Source of the DNA: Leptolyngbya sp. NIES-3755
GTDB taxonomy: Bacteria; Cyanobacteriota; Cyanobacteriia; Leptolyngbyales; Leptolyngbyaceae
Length of the DNA: 64,000 nt
Assembly (NCBI GenBank): GCA_001548435.1
Contig: AP017308.1
Span: 62,001-126,000 of the forward strand
Direction of reading: 5' to 3'
Shown: positions 18,940 to 43,168 of the stretch, piece after piece
Position numbering within the stretch: position 1 is the first letter of the stretch
Layout of the letters: the number at the start of each line of letters is the position of its first letter
Translations under genes and position numbers: made by a program
The notes under the pieces: generated by a model
Database searches by the model: none
Told to the model about the DNA's origin: nothing
What the model saw: only the letters and a program-made list of their open reading frames with translations

Positions 18940-19927
18940 ATTGCAGCACCACTCCAATCAATAACCAAATCAGAAAACACGATCGCGTTAAGTTCGTGGC
19001 TTGGTGAATTTTGTCGATCGTAATCGGATGCAGTGGATCGCCTAATAAGGGTTTATGTTTCTCCACGCCTCGATAATAGTTCACGCCGCCCACTTGAACA
19101 CCAAGAATTGCAGCGTAGACACATTCGCTCCATCCCGAATTTGGACTCGAATCTTTGGGTGCGTCTCGCTGGCACAGTTTCCAAACGTTCAAAGGCTGTC
19201 CGGAGATCAAGCCTAACGTAAACACGGTCAAACGACAGGGCAACCAAGTGAGAACATCATCGGTTTTAGCGCTGAAGAAACCAAAATCAGTGTAAGGGGC
19301 TTCTCGATAGCCAATCATTGAATCGAGAGTGCTTGCGGCTTTAAATGCGATCGCACATCCGATACTGCCCACAGGTGTAAATGCTCCAAGCAACGCATAA
19401 AACAATGGAGCCATCACACCATCGACAGCATTTTCGGTCACGGTTTCTAAGATAGCTCTAAGGATTTCTGGTTTCGATAAATTTTCAGTATCACGACCGA
19501 CATATAAGCGTAATTGCGATCGCGCTTCGTCCAAATCGTCTAACACTTCTAAAACTTGATCTGCTGCTCTTCTAAGGCTTCGTCCTGCGAAACAACTCGC
19601 TAAAAGAATGATCGCGATCGCACTTCCTAAAACGGGATGAATCATTCTCGCAACGGCAACCAGTCCTGAAGCGATCGCAGCACTTCCAAGAATAAGCGCG
19701 ATCGTCAAAATGGCTCCTGCAATCCGAAGTAAGAGCGAATTTTTAGTCAGGCGAAACGCGATCGATTTGAATTGTTCGATCGTCCAGCCCATGACCTGTA
19801 CCGGATGAATCCATCCCCACGGATCACCGATGCAAAAATCGAGCACTGCTGCCCCAACCAAAATTCCGCCTGTCTCAAACCACAAAACTCGCTTCTTCCC
19901 CTTGAGATGCCTGCCAACTGCGTGCAT
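18929..19927 (-). CDS. cobD: Adenosylcobinamide-phosphate synthase
   Basis: CobD/CbiB is a membrane enzyme that attaches aminopropanol to adenosylcobyric acid in cobalamin biosynthesis. The conserved LDFCIGDPWGWIHPVQVMGW (residues 29-48), the VTENAVDGVMAPLFYALLG segment and the C-terminal NYYRGVEKHKPLLGDP are present, with about five membrane spans. The first ATG (19927) overlaps the upstream Rrf2 gene by 53 bases; a TTG around 19885 would shorten the overlap. The only other cobalamin-linked neighbour is none, so it stands alone within this window. Confidence 0.92.
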   Translation of the reverse strand: MHAVGRHLKGKKRVLWFETGGILVGAAVLDFCIGDPWGWIHPVQVMGWTIEQFKSIAFRLTKNSLLLRIAGAILTIALILGSAAIASGLVAVARMIHPVLGSAIAIILLASCFAGRSLRRAADQVLEVLDDLDEARSQLRLYVGRDTENLSKPEILRAILETVTENAVDGVMAPLFYALLGAFTPVGSIGCAIAFKAASTLDSMIGYREAPYTDFGFFSAKTDDVLTWLPCRLTVFTLGLISGQPLNVWKLCQRDAPKDSSPNSGWSECVYAAILGVQVGGVNYYRGVEKHKPLLGDPLHPITIDKIHQATNLTRSCFLIWLLIGVVLQYVI

Positions 19928-20321
19928 CGTAGTATAAGTCTTCTAGCGAAATACTGTACAGCGCATCTTGCAGCTTTTTGTACAGTCGATTCCAGATCCC
20001 AAAGGCGACCCAATCCTCCGCTTGAGAATCATCGGGAGTATGACGTGGTAAAGGTTCTACGCTTTCGCCCACGGCTGCAAGAATCTGACCGAGTGAAATT
20101 TCTGCGGGATGTCGAGCGAGTTGGTAGCCGCCTTGTGCACCCCGAATCGAGAGCACCAATTCGGCTCGACGCATCTCGATTAAGAGCTTTTCCAAATAAG
20201 GCGCAGGAAGATCTTGTCGATCGGCGATCGATTTAACCGAAGCAGGTCCATAGTCTGGCTGGAAACACAAATCGAGTAATGCCTTCACGCTGTAGTGTCC
20301 GCGTGTGGTCAACTTCATCAT
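19875..20321 (-). CDS. Rrf2-family transcriptional regulator
   Basis: A 148-residue Rrf2 protein. The winged helix is clear: LTTRGHYSVKALLDLC, then SIADRQDLPAPYLEKLLIEM and GAQGGYQLAR. Members include IscR and CymR. This one lacks the three-cysteine cluster motif of IscR, so it probably does not bind an Fe-S cluster and is closer to CymR-like or uncharacterised cyanobacterial members. Either of two adjacent ATGs could start it; the second (20318) gives the usual MKLTTRGHY start. It overlaps cobD, so the three genes Rrf2-cobD-DUF721 form an operon. Confidence 0.9.
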   Translation of the reverse strand: MMKLTTRGHYSVKALLDLCFQPDYGPASVKSIADRQDLPAPYLEKLLIEMRRAELVLSIRGAQGGYQLARHPAEISLGQILAAVGESVEPLPRHTPDDSQAEDWVAFGIWNRLYKKLQDALYSISLEDLYYDARSWQASQGEEASFVV

Positions 20322-20365: not shown

Positions 20366-20662
20366 CTAGGGCGATCGCTGTTCTATGGATTGTGCAGCAT
20401 TCGTCGATCGAGCAGACAGCGATTCTACCCAGTAACCTTTTGAGGTGTCTGCTGGAATCTGCGTCATTGAAGCCTCACGCGCATTTAACACGGGCATCGG
20501 TGAACGATTTCCATTAGAAGAATAAACACTCACCGCTTGAGCAGGACGAGAAGCGATCGCAGGTGAAGAAGCCCGAATTGCTAATCCGACTAGGCTTCCA
20601 AGCGATGCGATCCAACCTGCGAGTGCGGCAATGATTAACCATTTTTCGACCGTCTGATTCAT
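20366..20662 (-). CDS. Small hypothetical single-pass membrane protein
   Basis: About 98 residues from the ATG at 20662 (MNQTVEKWLIIAALAGWIAS). One hydrophobic segment at residues about 8-28 is followed by a polar Ser/Pro-rich tail that ends in SIEQRSP. It looks like a signal-anchored protein. I recognise no family. The frame is open to 20677 with an earlier Met. It lies upstream of, and co-directional with, the Rrf2 gene. Confidence 0.55.
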   Translation of the reverse strand: MNQTVEKWLIIAALAGWIASLGSLVGLAIRASSPAIASRPAQAVSVYSSNGNRSPMPVLNAREASMTQIPADTSKGYWVESLSARSTNAAQSIEQRSP

Positions 20663-20875
20663 CCCTTGACCCCGCAAACCACTTAATCAGGAAATTTCGT
20701 AGCAGACCCACTTGTATCGGGCATCAGAGGCGTTTAACTAAGCCTAATTATAGCTCGATCGATAGAAAGATCAAAGATTTCATGCTCTTGTCAACCGTAA
20801 AGTTTGGCAAATTTCTCTGTGATACCTCGGAAATTCGATTACAATCCGATGTCTCGAACTAGCAACAGAGTCGGT

Positions 20876-21712
20876 ATGAACGTTAAACGGTTTTTTCAAG
20901 TCATGATTCCGGTGGCGATCGCGATCGTGGTTTTTCTCTTCAGTACAACAATGCAGGCGACAAGCGCCCCCGCAGGTCGAACTCAACTACAGTGGTATGG
21001 GCAATCAGCATTCAAGCTCACGACTCCCTCTGGTAGAGTGTTGCTGATTGATCCCTGGCTCACGAATCCGGTGAATCCAAACGGTAAAACAGATTTGGCA
21101 AATCTCAATCGAGCGGATTTGATTCTGGTGACGCATGGACATTTTGATCATGTTGGGGATGCCATTACGATCGCGAAAAAAACGAATGCGCCGCTCGTCA
21201 GTACTGCTGACTTGGGACAAGCATTAGTGGGGATTGGCTATCCCAAGAACCTAGTCAGTCTGACCACTCAAGGAAATTTCGGTGGTGAACTGTCGCTGTT
21301 GAACAATGAAGTGAGAGTTGCTTTTATTCCAGCCATTCACAGTTCAACCGTGGCATCCGATGGGAGTCCAGCCCAGTTCGCAGGCAATCCAGGTGGATTT
21401 CTTATCAGTGTCCAAAATGGTCCAACCCTCTATCACACCGGAGATACGGACGTGTTTGCGGATATGTCTCTGATTCCACAGTTTCGCAAAGTTACGGTGA
21501 TGTTGGCTTGTATCGGGGATCACTTCACGATGGGACCCAAACGGGCGGCAACTGCGGTAAATTATGTCAAGCCTGATCTGGTGATTCCGATGCACTTTGG
21601 GACTTTTCCTGCCCTGACCGGGACTCCACAGGCTTTTCAAGCCGAACTCGATCGCCAAAAAGTCAACACCAAACTTCAAGTGATGAAAGTCGGTCAAACT
21701 GTTCAACTCTAA
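20876..21712 (+). CDS. MBL-fold metal-dependent hydrolase (UPF0173-like), predicted secreted
   Basis: The metallo-beta-lactamase fold is indicated by THGHFDH (HxHxDH motif), by PAIHSS, by HTGDTDVF and by the C-terminal IPMHFGTFPAL. The overall pattern matches UPF0173 metal-dependent hydrolases, whose substrate is unknown. From the ATG at 20876 a hydrophobic signal segment, VMIPVAIAIVVFLFSTTMQA, suggests export or membrane anchoring. The frame starts at a TTG (20804), which is less likely. The epimerase gene begins 8 bases after its stop, so it probably belongs to the dgcA-dgcN operon. Confidence 0.85.
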   Translation: MNVKRFFQVMIPVAIAIVVFLFSTTMQATSAPAGRTQLQWYGQSAFKLTTPSGRVLLIDPWLTNPVNPNGKTDLANLNRADLILVTHGHFDHVGDAITIAKKTNAPLVSTADLGQALVGIGYPKNLVSLTTQGNFGGELSLLNNEVRVAFIPAIHSSTVASDGSPAQFAGNPGGFLISVQNGPTLYHTGDTDVFADMSLIPQFRKVTVMLACIGDHFTMGPKRAATAVNYVKPDLVIPMHFGTFPALTGTPQAFQAELDRQKVNTKLQVMKVGQTVQL

Positions 21713-21720
21713 GCTTTCTA

Positions 21721-22788
21721 ATGCACATTCAGATTCAGACTTTCACCGTTCACAAGCGGTTTGCACTGAAAATTAGTCGCGGCACAACGGCTCAAACGAC
21801 GAATATTTGGCTCAAGATCGAAGAGGATGGAATCGAAGGTTGGGGGGAAGCTTCTCCGTTTTCGATCGGAGAAAAACCGCAAACCACAGAAGCGATCGCT
21901 CGTTCTCTTCAAGCGATCGCACCTTTGCTCAAAGCGATCCATCCGCTCGAACGTCAACGCATCGATCAGTTGCTCGCTCAAGCCAAACTCCCTTCTGCGG
22001 CTCGTGCGGCGATCGATCTGGCGCTACAGGATTGGTTTGGAAAGTCGGTGAATCTGCCGCTTTGGAAAATTTGGGGATTGGAGCGCGATCGCATTGTGCC
22101 CACTTCAGTGACGATCGGCATTAACACGCCCGAAGGTGCAAAACAACGAGTCAAAGATTGGCTCGGAAAAGGAACGGTTGAATCGCCGCTTCAAGACATT
22201 CAAGCGTTGAAAGTGAAACTGGGAAGTCCTGAAGGGATTGAAGCAGATCAAGCCATGTTTGAAGCAGTTCGAGAAGCGGCTCCGAACATTGATCAAATCA
22301 GTGTGGATGCCAATGGTGGATGGACAGTTGAAACGGCGCTAAAAATGGCTCATTGGTTGAGCGATCGTCATGTGACTTACATCGAGCAACCGTTACCAGC
22401 GGGACAAGAAACGGAACTTACGAAATTGTTCTATCTATCACCGTTACCCATTTTTGTCGATGAGAGTTGCTTTACCAGCCGATCGATTCCATCTTTGTGC
22501 GATCGCGTTCACGGCATCAACATCAAACTGATGAAATCGGGCGGTCTGAGTGAAGCACTCCGAATGATTCATGTGGCTAAAGCGAATGACTTAAAAGTGA
22601 TGTTCGGGTGTTACTCCGATAGTGCCTTGATGAATAGCGCGATCGCACAGTTATCTCCGTTAGCGGATTACTTAGATCTCGATAGTCACTTGAATTTAGT
22701 GGATGATCCATTTACCGGAGCAAGCTTTCAAAACGGTCGAGTGATACCGAGCGATCGACCTGGAATTGGGGTGGTACTTAGGAGATAG
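21721..22788 (+). CDS. dgcA: Enolase-superfamily epimerase, probable N-acetyl-D-glutamate racemase (DgcA) or dipeptide epimerase
   Basis: A 355-residue muconate-lactonizing/mandelate-racemase type protein. Catalytic lysines are in LKVKLG (Lys164, Lys166) and NIKLMK (Lys269). Metal ligands are Asp196 (VDANGGW), Glu222 (IEQPL) and Asp247 (FVDES). On sequence alone it would be called an L-Ala-D/L-Glu dipeptide epimerase. The immediate downstream partner is a DUF1611 protein, and that pairing is the DgcN-DgcA route in which D-glutamate is N-acetylated and then racemised to N-acetyl-L-glutamate. The assignment to DgcA is therefore based on context. Peptidoglycan-dipeptide recycling remains the alternative. 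Confidence 0.75.
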   Translation: MHIQIQTFTVHKRFALKISRGTTAQTTNIWLKIEEDGIEGWGEASPFSIGEKPQTTEAIARSLQAIAPLLKAIHPLERQRIDQLLAQAKLPSAARAAIDLALQDWFGKSVNLPLWKIWGLERDRIVPTSVTIGINTPEGAKQRVKDWLGKGTVESPLQDIQALKVKLGSPEGIEADQAMFEAVREAAPNIDQISVDANGGWTVETALKMAHWLSDRHVTYIEQPLPAGQETELTKLFYLSPLPIFVDESCFTSRSIPSLCDRVHGINIKLMKSGGLSEALRMIHVAKANDLKVMFGCYSDSALMNSAIAQLSPLADYLDLDSHLNLVDDPFTGASFQNGRVIPSDRPGIGVVLRR

Positions 22789-22792
22789 ACTC

Positions 22793-23839
22793 ATGTTGCA
22801 ATCGAAAGATCGGGTTGCGGTTCTGTTGCATGATGGAATTCAAGGCACACAGGGCAAAACGGGATTAACCTTTACTCGGTATCGATCTGAATCGGTGGTT
22901 GCCATTATTGATCATCAAACTGCTGGACAATCTTTTTCGGCACTAACTTCGATCGCGTGTAAGGCTCCCATTGTTCGCTCAGTGGATGAAGCACTGGACT
23001 ATCAACCGACGGTGTTATTGATTGGGATTGCTCCATCAGGCGGAATCTTACCCGAAGCTTGGTTGAGTGAGATTGGAAGTGCGATCGCGTCCGGGGTGTC
23101 GATCGCGAATGGATTGCATACCGCTTTAGCTCCTCGATTCAAGAAGCAATTACAGCCCGGACAATGGATTTGGGATATTCGTCAAGAACCACCGGGATTG
23201 AAAGTCGGAAGTGGGGCGGCTCGATCGCTGTCTAATCGAAGAGTTCTCACCGTGGGAACCGATATGAGCATTGGGAAAATGTCTACGAGTTTGGAACTCG
23301 ATCGTCTGGCTCAAACACGAGGAATACGATCGAGGTTTCTTGGAACCGGACAAGCTGGAATGATGATTTCTGGTGATGGGATTCCGTTAGATGCGATTCG
23401 GGTCGATTTTGCTGCGGGAGCGGTTGAACAGTTAGTCATGCGCTATGGAGATCATGACTTGCTTCACATTGAGGGACAAGGTTCGATTTTTAATCCAGCT
23501 TCGACGGCTACCCTCCCATTGCTGAGAGGTTCACAACCGACGCATTTGATTCTGGTACATCGAGCGGGGCAATTACAGATTCGGACGTTTCCGCAGGTTT
23601 CGATTCCGCCTTTGAAAACTGTGGTGCAAGTGTATGAATCGTTAGCGGCAGCGGGTGGATCGTTTACACCGTGTAAAGTGGCAGCGATCGCGCTTAATAC
23701 CGCACATTTGGATCAAGATGCAGCCTGGAGAGCGATCGCATTAATTCAAGAAGAAACGAATCTACCTTGTACCGATCCGGTTCGATTTGGGGCAGACATC
23801 TTGCTAGATGCGATTTTGAATCGTGAACCTGCAAGATGA
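22793..23839 (+). CDS. dgcN: DUF1611 protein, probable D-glutamate N-acetyltransferase (DgcN)
   Basis: A 348-residue DUF1611 protein. It has a GTDMSIGKMSTSLEL nucleotide-loop-like segment, GTGQAGMMISGDGIPLDA and HIEGQGSIFNPAST, all characteristic of the family. Characterised members (DgcN) acetylate D-glutamate with acetyl-CoA. The ATG at 22793 is 8 bases after a strong AGGAG site at 22780-22784 that lies inside the upstream gene's end, 4 bases past the dgcA stop, so the two genes are translationally close. The TTG at 22766 is rejected as start. Biochemical activity in this organism is inferred. Confidence 0.8.
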   Translation: MLQSKDRVAVLLHDGIQGTQGKTGLTFTRYRSESVVAIIDHQTAGQSFSALTSIACKAPIVRSVDEALDYQPTVLLIGIAPSGGILPEAWLSEIGSAIASGVSIANGLHTALAPRFKKQLQPGQWIWDIRQEPPGLKVGSGAARSLSNRRVLTVGTDMSIGKMSTSLELDRLAQTRGIRSRFLGTGQAGMMISGDGIPLDAIRVDFAAGAVEQLVMRYGDHDLLHIEGQGSIFNPASTATLPLLRGSQPTHLILVHRAGQLQIRTFPQVSIPPLKTVVQVYESLAAAGGSFTPCKVAAIALNTAHLDQDAAWRAIALIQEETNLPCTDPVRFGADILLDAILNREPAR

Positions 23840-25561
23840 TCAATAAGCGGTAGCCGTCTTACGATGTTGAACTGCCGTCACACCCGTTGCTTCTAGCACT
23901 TTGCCATTCTCAACCGTGGCATAAAGCAACCAATGATCGCCACAATCCATCCGGTTAACAACTTTGCATTCAAGATAAGCCAGCGCATCCAACAGAATTG
24001 GACAACCATTCGAGGCAGATTCGGTACTGAGTTCAGCAAACCGATCCTCTCCGGGTGCAGTCGCTCTCAAGAAGTTGCGTCGGACATTTCGCCCTTCTTT
24101 GAGAATGTTTAGCACAAACGGAGTCTCCGCATGATCTAATACGCCTTCTGCTCGTTCTTTGGGCACAGAGATGGTAATTCCAGGCGGTGTAAAGGTGGCT
24201 TGAGAAACCCAAGACGTGAGAATGCCAAACGGTGATCCGCCCTGACTCGCTGTGATTACACTGAGAGAACCGACCACTCGTGCGATCGCTTGTTCAGTTC
24301 GATCGCTCTGTGCTTCGATTCCGACTTGTCTCGGTGCTCTAACCTTCTTTGTTTTCTTCAATGCTTGAGCAAATTCGGTTCCAGCCGCTTCACACTGTTG
24401 AATCACTTCATCGGTTGGCTTGAACTTGACGCGAATCGTATCGAATCCAAAGACAAATCCCGCATCTTGCAGTCTGCTTTCGAGTAAGTCGATCGCTTCT
24501 CCACTCCAGCCATAAGACCCGAATACGCCTGCAATCTTCGTTTTCGATGCTGTGGAAAGTACCAACCCCAGTGCGGTTTGCATCTGAGTTGGAGCATGTC
24601 CGCCCAAAGTGGGAGAACCAATCACAAAGGCATCACATTGTTCGATCGCGGCGGTAATCTCACTCGGATCAGCCAATTCACAGTTAATCGATTCGACTTT
24701 GATTTCAGAATCGGTTAGTCCTTTCGCGATCGCATGAGCGACCGAGGCAGTGTTGCCATACGCAGAAGTGTAAAGCAGTGCAACTGAGAGTTCTTGAGTC
24801 TTTTGCTGTTCGCACCATTCGAGGTATTCGAGCTTGAGGCGGCTGAGACTGTAACGAACGATCGAACCATGACCGACCGCGTACCATTTGGGGCGAAACC
24901 GGGAGAGTTTGTCGATCGCATCTTCGACTTGTTTGGATTGAGCAGCATGGAGACAGTCGAAATAATAATGTCGATCGTCGTCCAACTGTTTCCAGTTTTC
25001 ATCGAAAATGGCATCGTCGCAAACGTGAGCACCAAACAGCTTATCGGTGTAGAGAATCCGAGTCGCTGGATCGTAGGTGCAGAGTCCATCTACCCAGCGC
25101 GGTGTGGGAATGAACGCAAATTGAAGCTCGTGACCTTTGCCTAAATCTAGGATTTCTTCACCCCGAACGGCATTAATGTTCAGCGATTGATTAGGAAACG
25201 CGGCTTTGAGAGTGTTTGCGGCAGGGCGAGAACAGACGATCGTAATTTGTGGCGCAATTTCCAGGAGTCGCTTGATCGTTTCGATTCGGTTGGAATTGAC
25301 GTGACCCAAAATCACATAATCGAGCTTTTGAAAGTATTGATGATCGTGGAGTTCTTTGAGAAAAATATCGGTAAATGAGCCACCTGGTGGATCGATCAGA
25401 GCGCTTTTTTCTGCCTGAATCAGATAGCTGTTTGCGGTCGTGCCTTTTTGTCGTGCGTATTCGACCTCAAATTTCAGGCGATCCCAAGTGCGCGATCGTA
25501 GAATCCAAGTGTTTTGTGCGATTTCGGCAACTTGTACGTCTCTGGGTTTGGTCTGAAGCAT
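23840..25561 (-). CDS. flv1: Flavodiiron protein Flv1 (diflavin)
   Basis: A 573-residue three-domain cyanobacterial flavodiiron protein: metallo-beta-lactamase (about 1-260), flavodoxin (about 265-405, TSAYGNTASVA) and flavin reductase (about 425-573). The canonical H-x-E-x-D-H iron ligands are replaced by HVNSNR (87-92), with further substitutions at TPRWVDG and TDKLFG. This is the non-canonical pattern of Flv1 rather than Flv3. Flv1 acts with Flv3 in oxygen photoreduction after photosystem I (Mehler-like reaction). Its last base abuts the convergent dgcN stop. It lies downstream of flv3. Confidence 0.9.
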   Translation of the reverse strand: MLQTKPRDVQVAEIAQNTWILRSRTWDRLKFEVEYARQKGTTANSYLIQAEKSALIDPPGGSFTDIFLKELHDHQYFQKLDYVILGHVNSNRIETIKRLLEIAPQITIVCSRPAANTLKAAFPNQSLNINAVRGEEILDLGKGHELQFAFIPTPRWVDGLCTYDPATRILYTDKLFGAHVCDDAIFDENWKQLDDDRHYYFDCLHAAQSKQVEDAIDKLSRFRPKWYAVGHGSIVRYSLSRLKLEYLEWCEQQKTQELSVALLYTSAYGNTASVAHAIAKGLTDSEIKVESINCELADPSEITAAIEQCDAFVIGSPTLGGHAPTQMQTALGLVLSTASKTKIAGVFGSYGWSGEAIDLLESRLQDAGFVFGFDTIRVKFKPTDEVIQQCEAAGTEFAQALKKTKKVRAPRQVGIEAQSDRTEQAIARVVGSLSVITASQGGSPFGILTSWVSQATFTPPGITISVPKERAEGVLDHAETPFVLNILKEGRNVRRNFLRATAPGEDRFAELSTESASNGCPILLDALAYLECKVVNRMDCGDHWLLYATVENGKVLEATGVTAVQHRKTATAY

Positions 25562-25618
25562 AAGACAAAAGGATCAAGGGTGTGAGGAGAAGATTTTAGG
25601 ATTGGAAGATTTTGGGAT

Positions 25619-25706
25619 GCCCTCATCCCCAGCCCTTCTCCCCAGGGAGAAGGGAGCCAGAGACCTCTTGTCCCCTCTCCCTCAGGGAGAGGGCTAGGGT
25701 GAGGGC
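25619..25706. repeat. Palindromic repeat element between flv3 and flv1
   Basis: An 88-base imperfect palindrome. Its ends GCCCTCATCCCC and AGGGTGAGGGC pair, and two inner hairpins form from CTTCTCCC/GGAGAAG and CCCTCTCCC/GGGAGAGGG. This C/T-rich and G/A-rich arrangement is a dispersed intergenic repeat type that I recall from cyanobacterial and other genomes. It occupies most of the 153-base flv3-flv1 spacer, so both genes' mRNA would contain it. It encodes no protein. Confidence 0.75.
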
Positions 25707-25714
25707 AAATCCGA

Positions 25715-27451
25715 TCAATAGTGATTTCCCACCTTCCGATGGTGAACGGCAGTCAGCGCATCCGCTTTCGCCACTCGTCCAGCCGTCACCGTACTGTAAA
25801 CAATCCAGTGATCGCTACATTCCATCCGGCTCACGACTTCACATTCCATATACGCGAGTGCTTCCGCCAAAATCGGTGAACCATTCGTCGCGGGATAAGT
25901 CGCCACATCTGCAAACCGATCGGCTCCCGGTGCAAATCGTTTTAAGAAGTGCTTCATCAAAGTCTGATATCGACCTTCTTCAAGTGCATTTAGAACAAAT
26001 CGATCGCCCACATGCAGCAGAGATTCGATCGCTCGATCTTTTGCAACCGCGATCGAGACTCCTAACGGTTCAGAACTCGCTTGAGCGACCCAAGAAGCCA
26101 GCATCGCACTCGAAACATCGCCTTTCTGTGCGGTAATGATGTACAAACCGCCACTGATGCGACCGAGCGCTTTATCGAGTTCGTTGTCTAGCGCTTTCAT
26201 TTGTTTGACTGTACGATCGCGAGTCAGCCATTGTCCCAAGTCGGTTCCTGACTCTTCGCAAAGCTGGTAAATCGCTTCGGTCGGTTCCGTTTCGATTTTG
26301 ATTGGCTCGAACTTTTCAACCAGTCCGACTTCTCGGAATCGGTTACGAATTGGGTAAACGGCTTCATCGTTGCCGCCACCGACTTCAAAGAGTCCGAAGT
26401 TTTGTTTAGAATTCGCCGCCGCAAGAATCGTTCCAATTGCAGCAGCAGCATTCTCAGCACCTTCTCCGGTTTGGGGTGGCATACCAAGCACGATCGCGCT
26501 TGAAAGTTCGACCAATTCACGAACTTCTTGAGGATCAGCGACTCGCAAATCCATCATTTCAACTGCAACTCCGGTTTTGGTGATTCCAGTTCCGATCGCT
26601 TGTGCGAGTCGATCGCCGTATCCATGCCCTGCCACATAGAACAATCCAACCGTTGTGGTCGCTTTTGCTTGGGTTTGGCTCCAGTCTTGGTAGCGACCGA
26701 CTAATTCTTCGATGTTGTAGCGCAAGAGAGGACCGTGACCGGTTGCGATCGTCGTAATTTCCGGGAGTTCTTTGATTCGCTTGATTGCGCCCAAGACCGA
26801 TCGAGCATTGGGAGCCATCAGACAGTCGTAGTATTGACGAAATTCGGCTTCGAGAATGTCGAGGTCTTCGTCGTAGGTGTGATCGTCGCAGAAGTGCATC
26901 CCGAACGCATCACAGGTAAAAAGCGTCTGGGTTTTGTGATCGTAGGTGAAAATGGTGTCGGGCCAATGAAGATTCGGAGCCGAGACGAATTCGAGTTCGT
27001 GACCGTTGCCCAAATCTAAGCGATCGCCACTTTTAACGATCTTGCTCTTGAAGGGTTGGTGGACGAGATTTTCGAGGAATTGAATCGCGACTTTTGCACC
27101 GACAACGGTGATTTCAGGATTCAATTCGAGAACATCGCGCACCAAGCCGCTGTGATCCGGTTCGGTGTGGCTGATGATGAGATAATCGATTTCTTGTGGA
27201 TCGATCAGTTCATTGAGCGCATCAATGTAGAGTTCGCGGAATTTGGCGTGGGATGTGTCTACAAGGGCGATTTTCTCACCTCGAATCAGAAAGGAATTAT
27301 AAGTGGTTCCGTTATCGAGCGAGAATTCAATATCAAAGCGATCGCGATCCCAGTCGAGCGATCGAATCGTGGTAGTTTCCGGGGCGATATCGCTCGTTTC
27401 GGTAGTGAGACGAACTCTCGATCGAGTGGGGCGAGGAGCAGAAGCGACCAT
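25715..27451 (-). CDS. flv3: Flavodiiron protein Flv3 (diflavin)
   Basis: A 578-residue paralogue of Flv1 with the same domain order. The diiron ligands are canonical here: HTEPDH (His95, Glu97, Asp99, His100), a further His in APNLHWPD, Asp in CDAFG and His in TGHGPLL. That pattern identifies Flv3. Flv3 pairs with Flv1 in reduction of O2 to water with electrons from photosystem I. The order flv3-flv1 on one strand with a repeat between them indicates an operon or a pair with separate regulation. A divergent promoter lies between flv3 and coaX. Confidence 0.9.
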   Translation of the reverse strand: MVASAPRPTRSRVRLTTETSDIAPETTTIRSLDWDRDRFDIEFSLDNGTTYNSFLIRGEKIALVDTSHAKFRELYIDALNELIDPQEIDYLIISHTEPDHSGLVRDVLELNPEITVVGAKVAIQFLENLVHQPFKSKIVKSGDRLDLGNGHELEFVSAPNLHWPDTIFTYDHKTQTLFTCDAFGMHFCDDHTYDEDLDILEAEFRQYYDCLMAPNARSVLGAIKRIKELPEITTIATGHGPLLRYNIEELVGRYQDWSQTQAKATTTVGLFYVAGHGYGDRLAQAIGTGITKTGVAVEMMDLRVADPQEVRELVELSSAIVLGMPPQTGEGAENAAAAIGTILAAANSKQNFGLFEVGGGNDEAVYPIRNRFREVGLVEKFEPIKIETEPTEAIYQLCEESGTDLGQWLTRDRTVKQMKALDNELDKALGRISGGLYIITAQKGDVSSAMLASWVAQASSEPLGVSIAVAKDRAIESLLHVGDRFVLNALEEGRYQTLMKHFLKRFAPGADRFADVATYPATNGSPILAEALAYMECEVVSRMECSDHWIVYSTVTAGRVAKADALTAVHHRKVGNHY

Positions 27452-31181: not shown

Positions 31182-32591
31182 TTGAGTCCTCAGTTGCCTG
31201 AACATAAACCCCAACAAACTTGGAGTCAGCGATTTGAATCTGCATTGCATCCCGCGATCGCAGAATTCAACGCCAGCATCGGTTTTGATATTGAATTGAT
31301 CGAGTACGACCTCACTGGATCGCAGGCACACGCAAAAATGCTGGCAAAAACTGGCATTATTTCTGCCGAAGAAGGCGATCGATTAGTGAGTGGACTGGAG
31401 CAGATTCGCCAGGAATATCGCCAGGGACAGTTTCAACCGGGCGTGGATGCCGAAGATGTGCATTTTGCGGTGGAGAAACGGCTGACCGAGATTACGGGCG
31501 ATGTGGGTAAGAAACTGCATACGGCTCGATCGAGAAATGACCAGGTGGGAACGGATACTCGCTTGTATTTACGCGCTGAAATTGAAGCGATTCGTCAGCA
31601 TATTCGAGCCTTTCAAGGTGTTCTACTCGATTTAGCCGAAGCGAACGTTCAAACGCTGATTCCGGGCTATACGCATCTTCAGCGGGCACAGCCGATTAGT
31701 CTCGCTCATCATTTGCTAGCTTATTTTGAAATGACGCAGCGGGATTGGACGCGACTCGGTGAAATTTATCAACGTGTGAATCTGTCGCCGCTGGGGTCTG
31801 GCGCATTAGCGGGTACGACCTTTCCGATCGATCGACATTACACCGCTGAGTTATTAGAGTTTGGCGGCTTGTACGAGAACAGTTTGGATGGAGTCAGCGA
31901 TCGAGATTTCGCGATCGAGTTCCTTTGTGCTGCAAGTTTGATCATGGTTCACCTCAGCCGCTTATCTGAGGAAGTGATCTTCTGGGCATCTCAAGAATTT
32001 AGCTTTGTGACGCTGAAAGATAGTTGTGCCACGGGTTCGAGCATCATGCCACAGAAAAAGAATCCGGATGTGCCTGAATTAGTTCGCGGCAAAACTGGAC
32101 GAGTCTTTGGACATTTGCAAGGCATGTTAGTGCTGATGAAAGGTTTACCACTGGCATATAACAAGGATTTGCAAGAAGACAAAGAAGCCTTATTCGATGC
32201 GGTAAAAACGGTAAAGGCTTGTCTTGAAGCGTTGACAATTCTATTTCGAGAAGGGCTAGAGTTTCGGACTGCTCGATTACATGAAGCGGTCGCAGAAGAT
32301 TTTTCAAACGCAACGGATGTAGCGGATTATCTTGCATCGAAGGGCGTTCCATTCCGAGAAGCATATAACTTAGTTGGAAAAGTGGTTCGATCGTGCCTTT
32401 CTCAGAACAAGTTATTGAAAGACCTTTCACTTGCAGAATGGCAGGAATTACACCCCGCATTTGAATCGGATATTTACGAAGCAATCGCGCCTTCTCAAGT
32501 GGTTGCGGCTCGAAATAGTTTTGGTGGAACTGGATTTGAGCAAATCGATCGAGCGCTTCACTCTGCAAAACAACGATTTCAACAGGATTAG
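31182..32591 (+). CDS. argH: Argininosuccinate lyase
   Basis: ArgH splits argininosuccinate to arginine and fumarate. The fumarase/aspartase signature [16 protein letters not shown] is present, as are [12 protein letters not shown] and YTHLQRAQP. At 469 residues it has normal length. The start must be the TTG at 31182: an in-frame TGA at 31173-31175 lies only 9 bases upstream, and the next in-frame ATG would remove the conserved [15 protein letters not shown]-terminus. PrxQ follows after 3 bases. Confidence 0.95.
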
Positions 32592-38758: not shown

Positions 38759-40021
38759 TTAGGCGCTAACTGCTGCGGGTGCTTTCGTCGGCACTTTCAA
38801 GACTTGCTGATAAAGCTTACCTAACTGAGAAGCCACGCCATCCCAGCTAAACATCTCCTCAACCCGATCGCGTCCTCCACGCCCCAATCGATCGCGATAC
38901 TCTGAATCCGCCAAAATACGATCGAGAGCTTTCGCAAACGCATCCTCATCTTTCGGTGGTGCTAACAATCCGGTTTCATCAGGAATCACCGTAAACTGCA
39001 ATCCACCCACATCTGAAGCCACCACTGGAGTCCCACTTGCCATCGCTTCGATCGCAACCAGTCCAAACGGCTCATAATGGCTCGGAACGGTACATACATC
39101 AGCCGCCGCGTAATAGAGATGCAGATTCTCAAGTCCTAAACGACCGGGGAACAGAGTCATGTCTTGCAATCCAAGCTCATTCACAATCCCCTCAATGCGA
39201 TCGCGTTCCATGCCATCGCTCTGTCCTGGAGTACTGCCTCCACCGATGATTAACTGCAAATTCTCATGCTGTAATTGTCCAACAGCGCGAACAGTCGTTT
39301 CGATTCCTTTTCGTCGATCGAAGCGTCCCACGTATAGAACAATCTTGGCATCTTGATCTAGTCCCAACGCTTGACGCGCTTCTGCACGAGAAATTCTGCC
39401 AAATCGTTCAATGTCTGTACCACAGGGAATGATATCGATATTGCCGTGAGCAGAAACCAGCGATCGCATGTGAGCCTGTTCTTGAGGACTGGTTGCAACA
39501 ATCCGTTCTGCTGTTTCTAAACATAGCTTTTCAGTCGCCAATCTCGTTTTCGCAATCATGGGAATCGCAGAAACGGCTTGATACTTCACCGCACCTAAAG
39601 AATGGTAAGTATGAATCTGTTTTGAACCTTGGAGTTTCTTTAAGGTCATGCCTACCCAAGACGATAACCAGTAATTCGTATGCACTAATGGGTATTGATA
39701 GCCCAGTTCAGCTTGGAACTGTTGAAATTGTTTGACAAACTCAGGCAAGTATCCGAACAAATCATCGCGGGGAATAAACGCTTGCGGTCCAGCGACCAAG
39801 CGAATAGTGCGGCAATGCGGTGTATGTTGAACCATCTCAGGCTGATCGATCGAGACTTTGCGAGTGAACATATCCACTTGCCAGCCTTGACGCGAGAGCG
39901 CTTCACCCACCTGACGCACATAAACATTCTGTCCACCCGCTTCTTCTTTTCCAATTTCGATCGCGGGATCACCGTGTACTGAAATTAATGCGATCCGAGG
40001 ACGCTGACCTGAGATAGCCAT
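38759..40021 (-). CDS. Sucrose-phosphate-synthase-like GT4 glycosyltransferase
   Basis: A glycosyltransferase of about 420 residues. The N-terminal EAGGQNVYVRQVGEALSRQGWQVDMFTR matches the sucrose-synthase/SPS branch of GT4 (GGQ donor loop). The C-terminal half has YVGRFDRRKGIETTVRAV and EPFGLVAIEAMASGTPVVASDVGG, the E-x7-E donor site. It could be sucrose-phosphate synthase, but the length fits the shorter cyanobacterial SPS-like proteins, and no sucrose-phosphatase domain is present. The ATG at 40021 (MAISGQRPRIAL) is preferred over 40066. Confidence 0.82.
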   Translation of the reverse strand: MAISGQRPRIALISVHGDPAIEIGKEEAGGQNVYVRQVGEALSRQGWQVDMFTRKVSIDQPEMVQHTPHCRTIRLVAGPQAFIPRDDLFGYLPEFVKQFQQFQAELGYQYPLVHTNYWLSSWVGMTLKKLQGSKQIHTYHSLGAVKYQAVSAIPMIAKTRLATEKLCLETAERIVATSPQEQAHMRSLVSAHGNIDIIPCGTDIERFGRISRAEARQALGLDQDAKIVLYVGRFDRRKGIETTVRAVGQLQHENLQLIIGGGSTPGQSDGMERDRIEGIVNELGLQDMTLFPGRLGLENLHLYYAAADVCTVPSHYEPFGLVAIEAMASGTPVVASDVGGLQFTVIPDETGLLAPPKDEDAFAKALDRILADSEYRDRLGRGGRDRVEEMFSWDGVASQLGKLYQQVLKVPTKAPAAVSA

Positions 40022-42325: not shown

Positions 42326-43168
42326 CTACCCAACAGCTACAGATTCCGAAAGTGTGACTTGTTGCACGATCGGGCTAAATCCAAGCCATTGTCGTGCGAC
42401 TTCGATAAAGGGCTGCGGATCACCACTCACACAGAACTGGGTCGGCTCAGGAGATTTGAGATTTCGCAATCCTAAGAGTTCCAATTCTTGAGCCGCCGCT
42501 TTCGCAACATGAACAGCGGGATCGATAAATTGAACTGATTTAGGCACGATCGAAGTTAGCACTGGAGCTAAATGGGGATAGTGCGTACAGCCATAAATCA
42601 ACGTGTCGATGTTCTGATCCAATAGCGGTTTGAGATACTTCTGAGCCACTTCGATCGTATACGGATCATAAATTCTTCCCTGTTCAATCAAGGGCACAAA
42701 TTCAGGACAGCCCTGTTGCCACACTTGTGCAGTCGGATCAACTTCTAGAATGGCTTGACGATACGCATCACTCTTAGCCGTTGCAGGAGTCGAAATCACC
42801 CCAATTCGCTTTCCTTGTCGAACTGCCGCACTTGCGCCGGGAAGAATCACCCCTAGAATTGGTAAACCTGGAAATTCTTGGCGCACGATATCGATCGCTA
42901 AAGCCGAACTCGTATTACACGCCATGATCACCATTTTGGCGCGGCGCTCGACCATCCAATGCAGAATCTCCCGCACGAATTGAATGATTTCAGATTGCGA
43001 TCGCGTTCCATACGGGACACGCGCCGTATCTCCGAAATACAACAGCGACTCTTGAGGCAATTGACGATACATTTCGCGCAGCACCGTCAAGCCACCGACC
43101 CCGCTATCAAAAAGCCCGATCGGATCTGAACCATTCGGCGTACCGAAGTTCTCTGCTGAATTGATCAT
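42326..43168 (-). CDS. murI: Glutamate racemase
   Basis: MurI interconverts L- and D-glutamate for peptidoglycan. The catalytic cysteines are in MACNTSSA and GCTHYPHL, and the N-terminal DSGVGGLTVLREM is conserved. The ATG at 43168 (MINSAENF) gives 280 residues, the normal length; the frame begins at 43183. It is downstream of the amidase gene on the same strand, with a hairpin in the 137-base gap. Confidence 0.95.
   Translation of the reverse strand: MINSAENFGTPNGSDPIGLFDSGVGGLTVLREMYRQLPQESLLYFGDTARVPYGTRSQSEIIQFVREILHWMVERRAKMVIMACNTSSALAIDIVRQEFPGLPILGVILPGASAAVRQGKRIGVISTPATAKSDAYRQAILEVDPTAQVWQQGCPEFVPLIEQGRIYDPYTIEVAQKYLKPLLDQNIDTLIYGCTHYPHLAPVLTSIVPKSVQFIDPAVHVAKAAAQELELLGLRNLKSPEPTQFCVSGDPQPFIEVARQWLGFSPIVQQVTLSESVAVG

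Follow-up and report, generated by a model that had tools for sequence, protein, structure and literature searches.

The window analysed here is a stretch of 64,000 nucleotides from Leptolyngbya sp. NIES-3755 (assembly GCA_001548435.1, contig AP017308.1, positions 62,001 to 126,000; coordinates below are those of the window), in which two adjacent genes on the forward strand encode an epimerase of the enolase superfamily and a protein of the DUF1611 family. The original prediction was that this pair represents the DgcN-DgcA route, through which D-glutamate is N-acetylated and then racemised to N-acetyl-L-glutamate. The unit consists of the following elements:

21721-22788, forward strand: epimerase gene (355 amino acids; enolase superfamily, dipeptide-epimerase/DgcA-like, with Pfam domains MR_MLE_N and MR_MLE_C).
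22780-22784, forward strand: AGGAG ribosome-binding site of the DUF1611 gene, 8 bases 5' of its ATG and read directly from the DNA.
22793 (ATG) to 23839 (end), forward strand: DUF1611 gene (348 amino acids; DgcN-like, with Pfam DUF1611_N at 86.7 bits and DUF1611 at 247.2 bits).

The epimerase gene comes first, and its stop is separated from the DUF1611 start by 4 bases (22789-22792), which confirms the predicted arrangement of two genes on one strand, four bases apart and with an AGGAG before the second. By the DUF1611 protein, the nearest named relatives are cyanobacteria, among them Myxacorys (72%).

Distribution of the gene pair

In a sample of 194 genomes of the phylum, strong matches to PF07755 were counted, those with E above 1e-5 being left out as weak, and an epimerase was considered close when it scored at least 150 bits against that of the window. 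A strong DUF1611 match was found in 55 genomes, and a close epimerase in all 55 of these versus 1 of the 139 others (Fisher p 5e-48, a statistic that ignores relatedness); the pairing exceeds chance. Six more genomes have a weak DUF1611 match and were left uncounted; four of them reach the Pfam cut-off once neighbouring frame pieces are added, and none has a close epimerase. The only genome with a close epimerase and no DUF1611 match (G053) is an assembly that is 94% complete with 9% contamination. DUF1611 also gives a match in Synechococcus elongatus.

Both genes lie on one strand within 2 kb in 50 of the 55 pair genomes, and in the 5 unlinked genomes both are nonetheless present. Among the 50 linked pairs, 36 overlap (with starts trimmed by homology), 8 have gaps of at most 100 bases and 6 have larger ones, while the epimerase gene is first in 47 and second in 3 (family f35). 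All 13 genomes of the window's family in a sample of relatives have both genes, linked or not, the pair being adjacent in 8 of 8 genomes of the window's genus and in 0 of 5 other genomes of the family (one of which is a fragmented, 82% complete assembly); in one genome of the family (G202) the DUF1611 frame contains an in-frame stop. At the level of the window's class, 52 of the 89 sampled genomes carry the pair.

Some single loci are unusual. In G129 the epimerase and DUF1611 genes are separated by an Uma2-type gene (L085, 6452-7264), and another Uma2 gene follows directly after the pair in G042 (L084, 8286-9008). Around a second DUF1611 match in G175 (C2, near 39368-39958) the open frame measures 24,637 codons, an oddity that could stem from masked or missing sequence.

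The pair extends beyond cyanobacteria. Named genomes were scanned with an alignment of DUF1611 proteins, the 80 best loci being kept (more existed) and phyla sorted by record title. An epimerase is present in 66 of these 80 best loci, always on the same strand, upstream of DUF1611 and no further than 1,093 bases from it; of seven epimerases used as queries, the window enzyme gives the highest score for each of the 66. The epimerase-first order occurs in 38 of the 49 cyanobacterial loci (one titled only 'bacterium') and in 28 of the 31 non-cyanobacterial loci. The latter come from Flavobacteriaceae and other Bacteroidota, Rhodobacteraceae, Acidiferrobacteraceae, another gammaproteobacterium, Planctomycetota and Verrucomicrobiota (single titles may be wrong, because many are metagenome bins or single cells), and include a named strain, Maribacter polysiphoniae DSM 23514 (L199). 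A relative of DUF1611 (identity of up to 36%) also occurs in 34 Erwinia and Dickeya phage records; in the 25 of these that were listed, the records measure ~263-267 kb and the protein is annotated as hypothetical.

The distances between the two proteins correlate at 0.90 over 49 genomes, as plain vertical descent would also give, and the two genes could in principle be co-inherited neighbours without a shared pathway. This is very improbable, since the linkage is kept across phyla and both genes are retained where they are unlinked. The pair is widely conserved and its two genes are, in all likelihood, functionally coupled.

Relation of the two proteins to DgcN and DgcA

The DgcN-DgcA pathway was reportedly worked out in Pseudoalteromonas sp. 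CF6-2. The reading preferred here, tentatively and at just under an even chance, is that the window pair is a sister variant of this module, in which a D-amino acid, most likely D-glutamate, is N-acetylated and then epimerised, with the product going into the ArgJ arginine cycle. We infer that the DUF1611 protein would acetylate the D-amino acid at its amino group, with acetyl-CoA as donor (D-glutamate being the best single guess for the substrate), and that the epimerase would then remove and return the alpha-proton by means of two lysines and a metal-held enolate, forming N-acetyl-L-glutamate that would enter the ArgJ-based cycle. Removal of the alpha-proton through a metal-held enolate is the established mechanism of the enolase superfamily.

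The DUF1611 protein has a Rossmann-like N domain and a P-loop domain, with the motifs GTDMSIGKM (P-loop), TGQ and EGQGS. Its structure model (predicted local distance difference test, pLDDT, 92.9) matches 2obn (Z 49.4), DgcN 7xrj (Z 37.7) and 2g0t (Z 36.9), after which Z drops to 14.3; 324 residues align with 7xrj nearly end to end (root mean square deviation 3.0), i.e. the protein has the DgcN fold. Identity to the DgcN of CF6-2 is 30%, the first 62 residues being unmatched to DgcN in the sequence search. Thirty-six alignment columns are invariant when the protein is compared with six named DgcNs and six further DUF1611 proteins, and include G155, D157, G161 and K162 of the P-loop as well as H109, R130, E227-Q229, H256 and N302. 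On the side of the epimerase, K164, K166, D196, E222, D247, K269 and D319/D321 are kept in all 52 sequences from the window's class, the last two forming the D319-L-D321 motif of the window enzyme, and R20 of the ISRG motif, common to DgcA, is kept in 49 of the 52.

A number of findings weigh against the sister-variant reading. The DUF1611 protein scores 235.9 bits on the NCBIfam DgcN model NF041892 (cut-off 480; the DgcN of CF6-2, as a control, scores 493.4), and the epimerase scores 206 bits on the DgcA model NF042940 (cut-off 400). In the DUF1611 tree the cyanobacterial clade (100/99) stands apart from the DgcN clade (100/100), and in the epimerase tree the clade of DgcA and YcjG (100/100) excludes the window enzyme. 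Relative to DgcA and YcjG, the paired epimerases show F16 replaced by L, E199 by G, L/V/I299 by S or G, and GP322-323 by SH; M298, present in all six solved chains compared, is replaced by Y in each of the 52 class sequences; and the residue after ISRGx, which is R or K in 5 of 5 DgcAs and in YcjG, is R or K in 0 of the 51 aligned class sequences (T, N, A, Y and H occur instead). The DxD motif is kept in all these epimerases, including all five named DgcAs. One of the 50 linked pairs (G174) has its DUF1611 split between frames. Lastly, ArgJ is present in 89 of 89 genomes of the window's class and in 38 genomes that lack the pair, and its match with the epimerase outside the class rests on two families.

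The predicted DgcN-DgcA identity therefore holds in part: the two-gene unit, homology on both sides and the DgcN fold stand, whereas the cut-offs, the clades, the gene order and residues near the active site point elsewhere. The pair probably works like DgcN-DgcA, but it should not be filed as such, because it falls short of the family cut-offs, lies outside the clades and has the other gene order. At a deeper node of the DUF1611 tree (95/83), the cyanobacterial and DgcN clades fall into a single clade that also contains f35 and one unnamed DUF1611.

The family model and the epimerase tree do not separate an N-acetyl-D-glutamate racemase from a dipeptide epimerase, because E. coli YcjG, which bears the record name L-Ala-D/L-Glu epimerase, passes NF042940 with 424.1 bits (L074, 2931-3893; CF6-2 DgcA scores 412) and sits inside the clade of named DgcAs, while the dipeptide epimerase of Bacteroides finegoldii outscores the window enzyme with 221.8 bits. 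DgcA being the best-scoring NCBIfam family was accordingly discarded as evidence for DgcA, YcjG passing its cut-off. On the NCBIfam AEE models the window enzyme scores 143.1 and 130.3 bits (versus cut-offs of 343 and 500). On whether it clusters with dipeptide epimerases, the tree gave a divided answer, as the window enzyme groups with Bacteroidota epimerases, including the Bacteroides dipeptide epimerase, at 95/88 and 96/89, but YcjG falls within DgcA. Automatic DgcA names may thus cover L-Ala-D/L-Glu epimerases too, and the fact that the two labels are not separable is a warning for annotation.

The catalytic lysines, metal ligands and DxD expected of an L-Ala-D/L-Glu epimerase are all present in the window enzyme; they occur in DgcA as well and do not discriminate. 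In dipeptide epimerases DxD binds the free ammonium group, which an N-acetyl substrate lacks, and the motif was considered as a test of dipeptide versus N-acetyl substrate; it was rejected, as five of five named DgcAs keep it. By sequence the best solved match is the Bacteroides dipeptide epimerase 3iji (189.3 bits), which was crystallised with L-Ala-D-Glu and is also the best fold match (Z 45.3, with 3ijq at Z 45). This nearest solved relative, the DxD kept in 52 of 52 class sequences, a P-loop domain that in the DUF1611 model resembles two users of ATP, cobyrinic acid diamide synthase and BioD (Z ~13 to 14), and the occurrence of Peptidase_S66 (LdcA family) in 172 of the 194 genomes would all suit the recycling of murein dipeptides, i.e. 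an epimerase of L-Ala-D/L-Glu (or another dipeptide) with a DUF1611 protein that acts on the dipeptide or its product, perhaps at the expense of ATP. We regard this as unlikely. The best fold match says little, because the Z scores of three other dipeptide epimerases differ from it by no more than 1.3, and Peptidase_S66 (missing from one pair genome, G177) is so widespread that it carries no information. Furthermore, named DgcNs carry the same P-loop and DgcA keeps DxD too, no DUF1611 was seen at the three annotated dipeptide-type epimerase loci examined (YcjG, B. finegoldii and Halorussus), and no real third gene accompanies the pair in more than 13 of the 55 genomes, unlike in Bacteroides, where a C40 peptidase is paired with the epimerase.

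The residues that set the paired epimerases apart would suit an alternative in which the same two-step chemistry serves another D-amino acid (e.g. D-Asp, D-Gln or a non-canonical one), with the epimerase retuned for that N-acyl amino acid; this is conceivable though unlikely. Epimerases paired in the epimerase-first order form one clade (25 rows, 100/99) across five phyla, and it is this clade that has L16, G199, S/G299, S322 and H323 where DgcA and YcjG differ. Among the 28 non-cyanobacterial members, G199 and S322 are present in 28 of 28, H323 in 26 and L16 in 26 (with 2 gaps), Y298 recurs in 4, and R or K follows ISRGx in 7 of 26; the three f35 epimerases share G199 and H323 and none of the remaining changes. 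Window residues C297-Y298-S299 align to S296-M297-I298 of the B. subtilis enzyme (1jpm), which presumably line the substrate pocket, and the loop position after ISRGx, at which the window's class has no R or K, is taken to be equivalent to Arg24 of YcjG, a substrate contact. The conserved R20 of ISRG, as in DgcA, argues against another substrate, as does the fact that lineage-specific residues can be neutral. In favour of another substrate, an article (mSystems 2025) gives dgcN a key role in a pathway that handles acidic D-amino acids and their amides. A third racemisation module, parallel to DgcN-DgcA and to the murein dipeptide epimerases, is possible but doubtful. In it, cyanobacteria and several other phyla would combine a DUF1611 acyltransferase with a retuned epimerase (signature VDANG, GC[YM][SG] and DLDS) and invert, via an N-acyl intermediate, a D-amino acid that is not D-glutamate.

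Metabolic context and neighbouring genes

ArgJ was found in 93 of the 194 genomes, among them all 55 pair genomes. Inside the window's class it is uninformative, because every genome carries it; outside the class it occurs in 4 of 105 genomes (G053, G077, G096 and G106), the same four that have a close epimerase, which is a striking match although it comes from two families. ArgA was above the cut-off in none of the 194 genomes, the strong matches spanning only the first two thirds of its profile, and these partial matches would, in our reading, represent the kinase ArgB. A review of Synechocystis metabolism (PMC7133116) has ArgJ carrying out both steps and names peptidoglycan as the fate of D-glutamate. 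With no ArgA over the cut-off and ArgJ doing both steps, the pair could supply N-acetyl-glutamate by a side route rather than the main one, and the link to arginine is plausible but weak. A link to cyanophycin was considered and dropped, as 9 of the 55 pair genomes are without a cyanophycin synthetase over the cut-off (G036, G054, G121, G175, G181, G189, G077, G096 and G106) and 33 of 79 genomes with the synthetase are without the pair.

The arginine branch of cyanobacteria is PII-controlled. If the sister-variant reading is true, the 52 pair-bearing genomes of the class carry a salvage step for D-amino acids that could feed N-acetyl-glutamate into that branch. A literature search on DgcN/DgcA, DUF1611, dipeptide epimerases and cyanobacterial D-glutamate gave, among the matches listed, no title or opening of an abstract on this pair in cyanobacteria (most subscription journals being outside its reach).

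Three further genes of the window were part of the predicted context:

20876-21712, forward strand: metallo-beta-lactamase (MBL)-fold hydrolase of the NCBIfam PRK00685 type (by Pfam and NCBIfam), a neighbour and not a conserved part of the unit.
31218-32579, forward strand: argH, ~7 kb downstream of the pair, context only.
42380-43120, reverse strand: murI, ~19 kb downstream of the pair, context only.

Both murI and argH are indeed present, each as the single above-cut-off match in the genome, though at some distance. The MBL-fold gene stops 8 bases short of the epimerase gene and its product is probably exported (judging by eye from a signal-peptide-like start), but its supposed role as first gene of a conserved operon had to be abandoned, as it is linked in only 3 of the 8 genus genomes (G000, G196 and G199) and in 1 of the 55 pair genomes of the phylum sample, while being present in 12 of 20 relatives.

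A conserved third gene was sought around the pair in the 55 genomes (a few loci being short, 4-6 kb), and none that is real occurs in more than 13. The two largest neighbour clusters (27 and 17 genomes) are, judging from their position, antisense open reading frames inside the two genes; they are followed by a divergent NUDIX gene (13 genomes) and by a nucleoside hydrolase, Uma2 and a 143-amino-acid open reading frame (7 genomes each). The most shared real neighbour is thus the NUDIX gene, and not a peptidase of murein peptides. A flavobacterial M20 peptidase lies near the pair in 8 of the 80 loci by clustering (one member being tested); its signal-peptide-like N-terminus makes its bearing on the pair doubtful.

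The nearest regulator found is of the Rrf2 type (19875-20321), and no LysR-type DgcR stands beside the pair. A scan of 20650-24000 for promoters and terminators yielded nothing useful, promoter-like sites being no commoner than in shuffles. At its end, the pair is met by two convergent genes on the opposite strand (23840-27451). The first encodes ODP beta-lactamase, flavodoxin and flavin reductase domains, and the second appears similar by eye.

Comparison with known systems

The system nearest to the pair is DgcN-DgcA (EC 2.3.1.312 and 5.1.1.25) of Pseudoalteromonas CF6-2 and its relatives, which consists of the same two families, likewise adjacent on one strand and with the predicted catalytic residues in common. 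The pair differs from it in its reversed order, the lack of a LysR-type DgcR, its position outside both clades and scores of about half the cut-offs, and the epimerase also in G199, S or G299, S322-H323 and, in the window's class, Y298. The locus of CF6-2 reads dgcR-dgcN-dgcA, dgcN is first in the 5 named dgcNA loci examined (CF6-2 included), and DUF1611 is also first in a Klebsiella locus annotated as DUF1611 and L-Ala-D/L-Glu epimerase. Within the stretches examined, a LysR gene was not seen beside every named dgcNA locus either.

On plasmids of Klebsiella and Pantoea (L142 and L063), genes of the dgcN-dgcA type are followed by ABC transporter genes, one of which is annotated for glutathione, and the Klebsiella plasmid is typed as conjugative. 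At two loci on pSymA of S. meliloti (L064 and L066), the gene tables, which have gaps, list no epimerase immediately adjacent to dgcN/DUF1611. The haloarchaeal plasmids L073 and L137, from Halostella pelagica (316,071 bases) and Salinibaculum litoreum (316,107 bases), may be the same plasmid.

Dipeptide epimerases have the fold, the KxK-D-E-D-K catalytic set and the DxD motif in common with the window enzyme, the Bacteroides enzyme being its nearest solved relative. However, the genes of YcjG and of the B. finegoldii epimerase adjoin a peptidase gene, with no DUF1611 in the stretches examined, unlike in the window, and in the six solved chains the M is followed by T, A, L, I, G or V, whereas the window enzyme has Y298-S299.

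Of the solved DUF1611 structures, 2obn (Anabaena variabilis Ava_3511) is a close homologue of the window protein, with 60% identity in the fold alignment; neither its title and molecule name nor those of 2g0t (Thermotoga TM0796) state an enzymatic function, and the sister-variant reading, if true, would suggest one for 2obn. On plasmids of Vibrio and Aliiroseovarius (L068, 3884-6168; L070, 3809-6180), DUF1611 is likewise coupled to a racemase, but one annotated in another family, i.e. as a pyridoxal phosphate-dependent (PLP) alanine/ornithine-type or alanine racemase encoded directly after it, and this DUF1611 falls in a separate clade. DUF1611 therefore pairs with two kinds of racemase.

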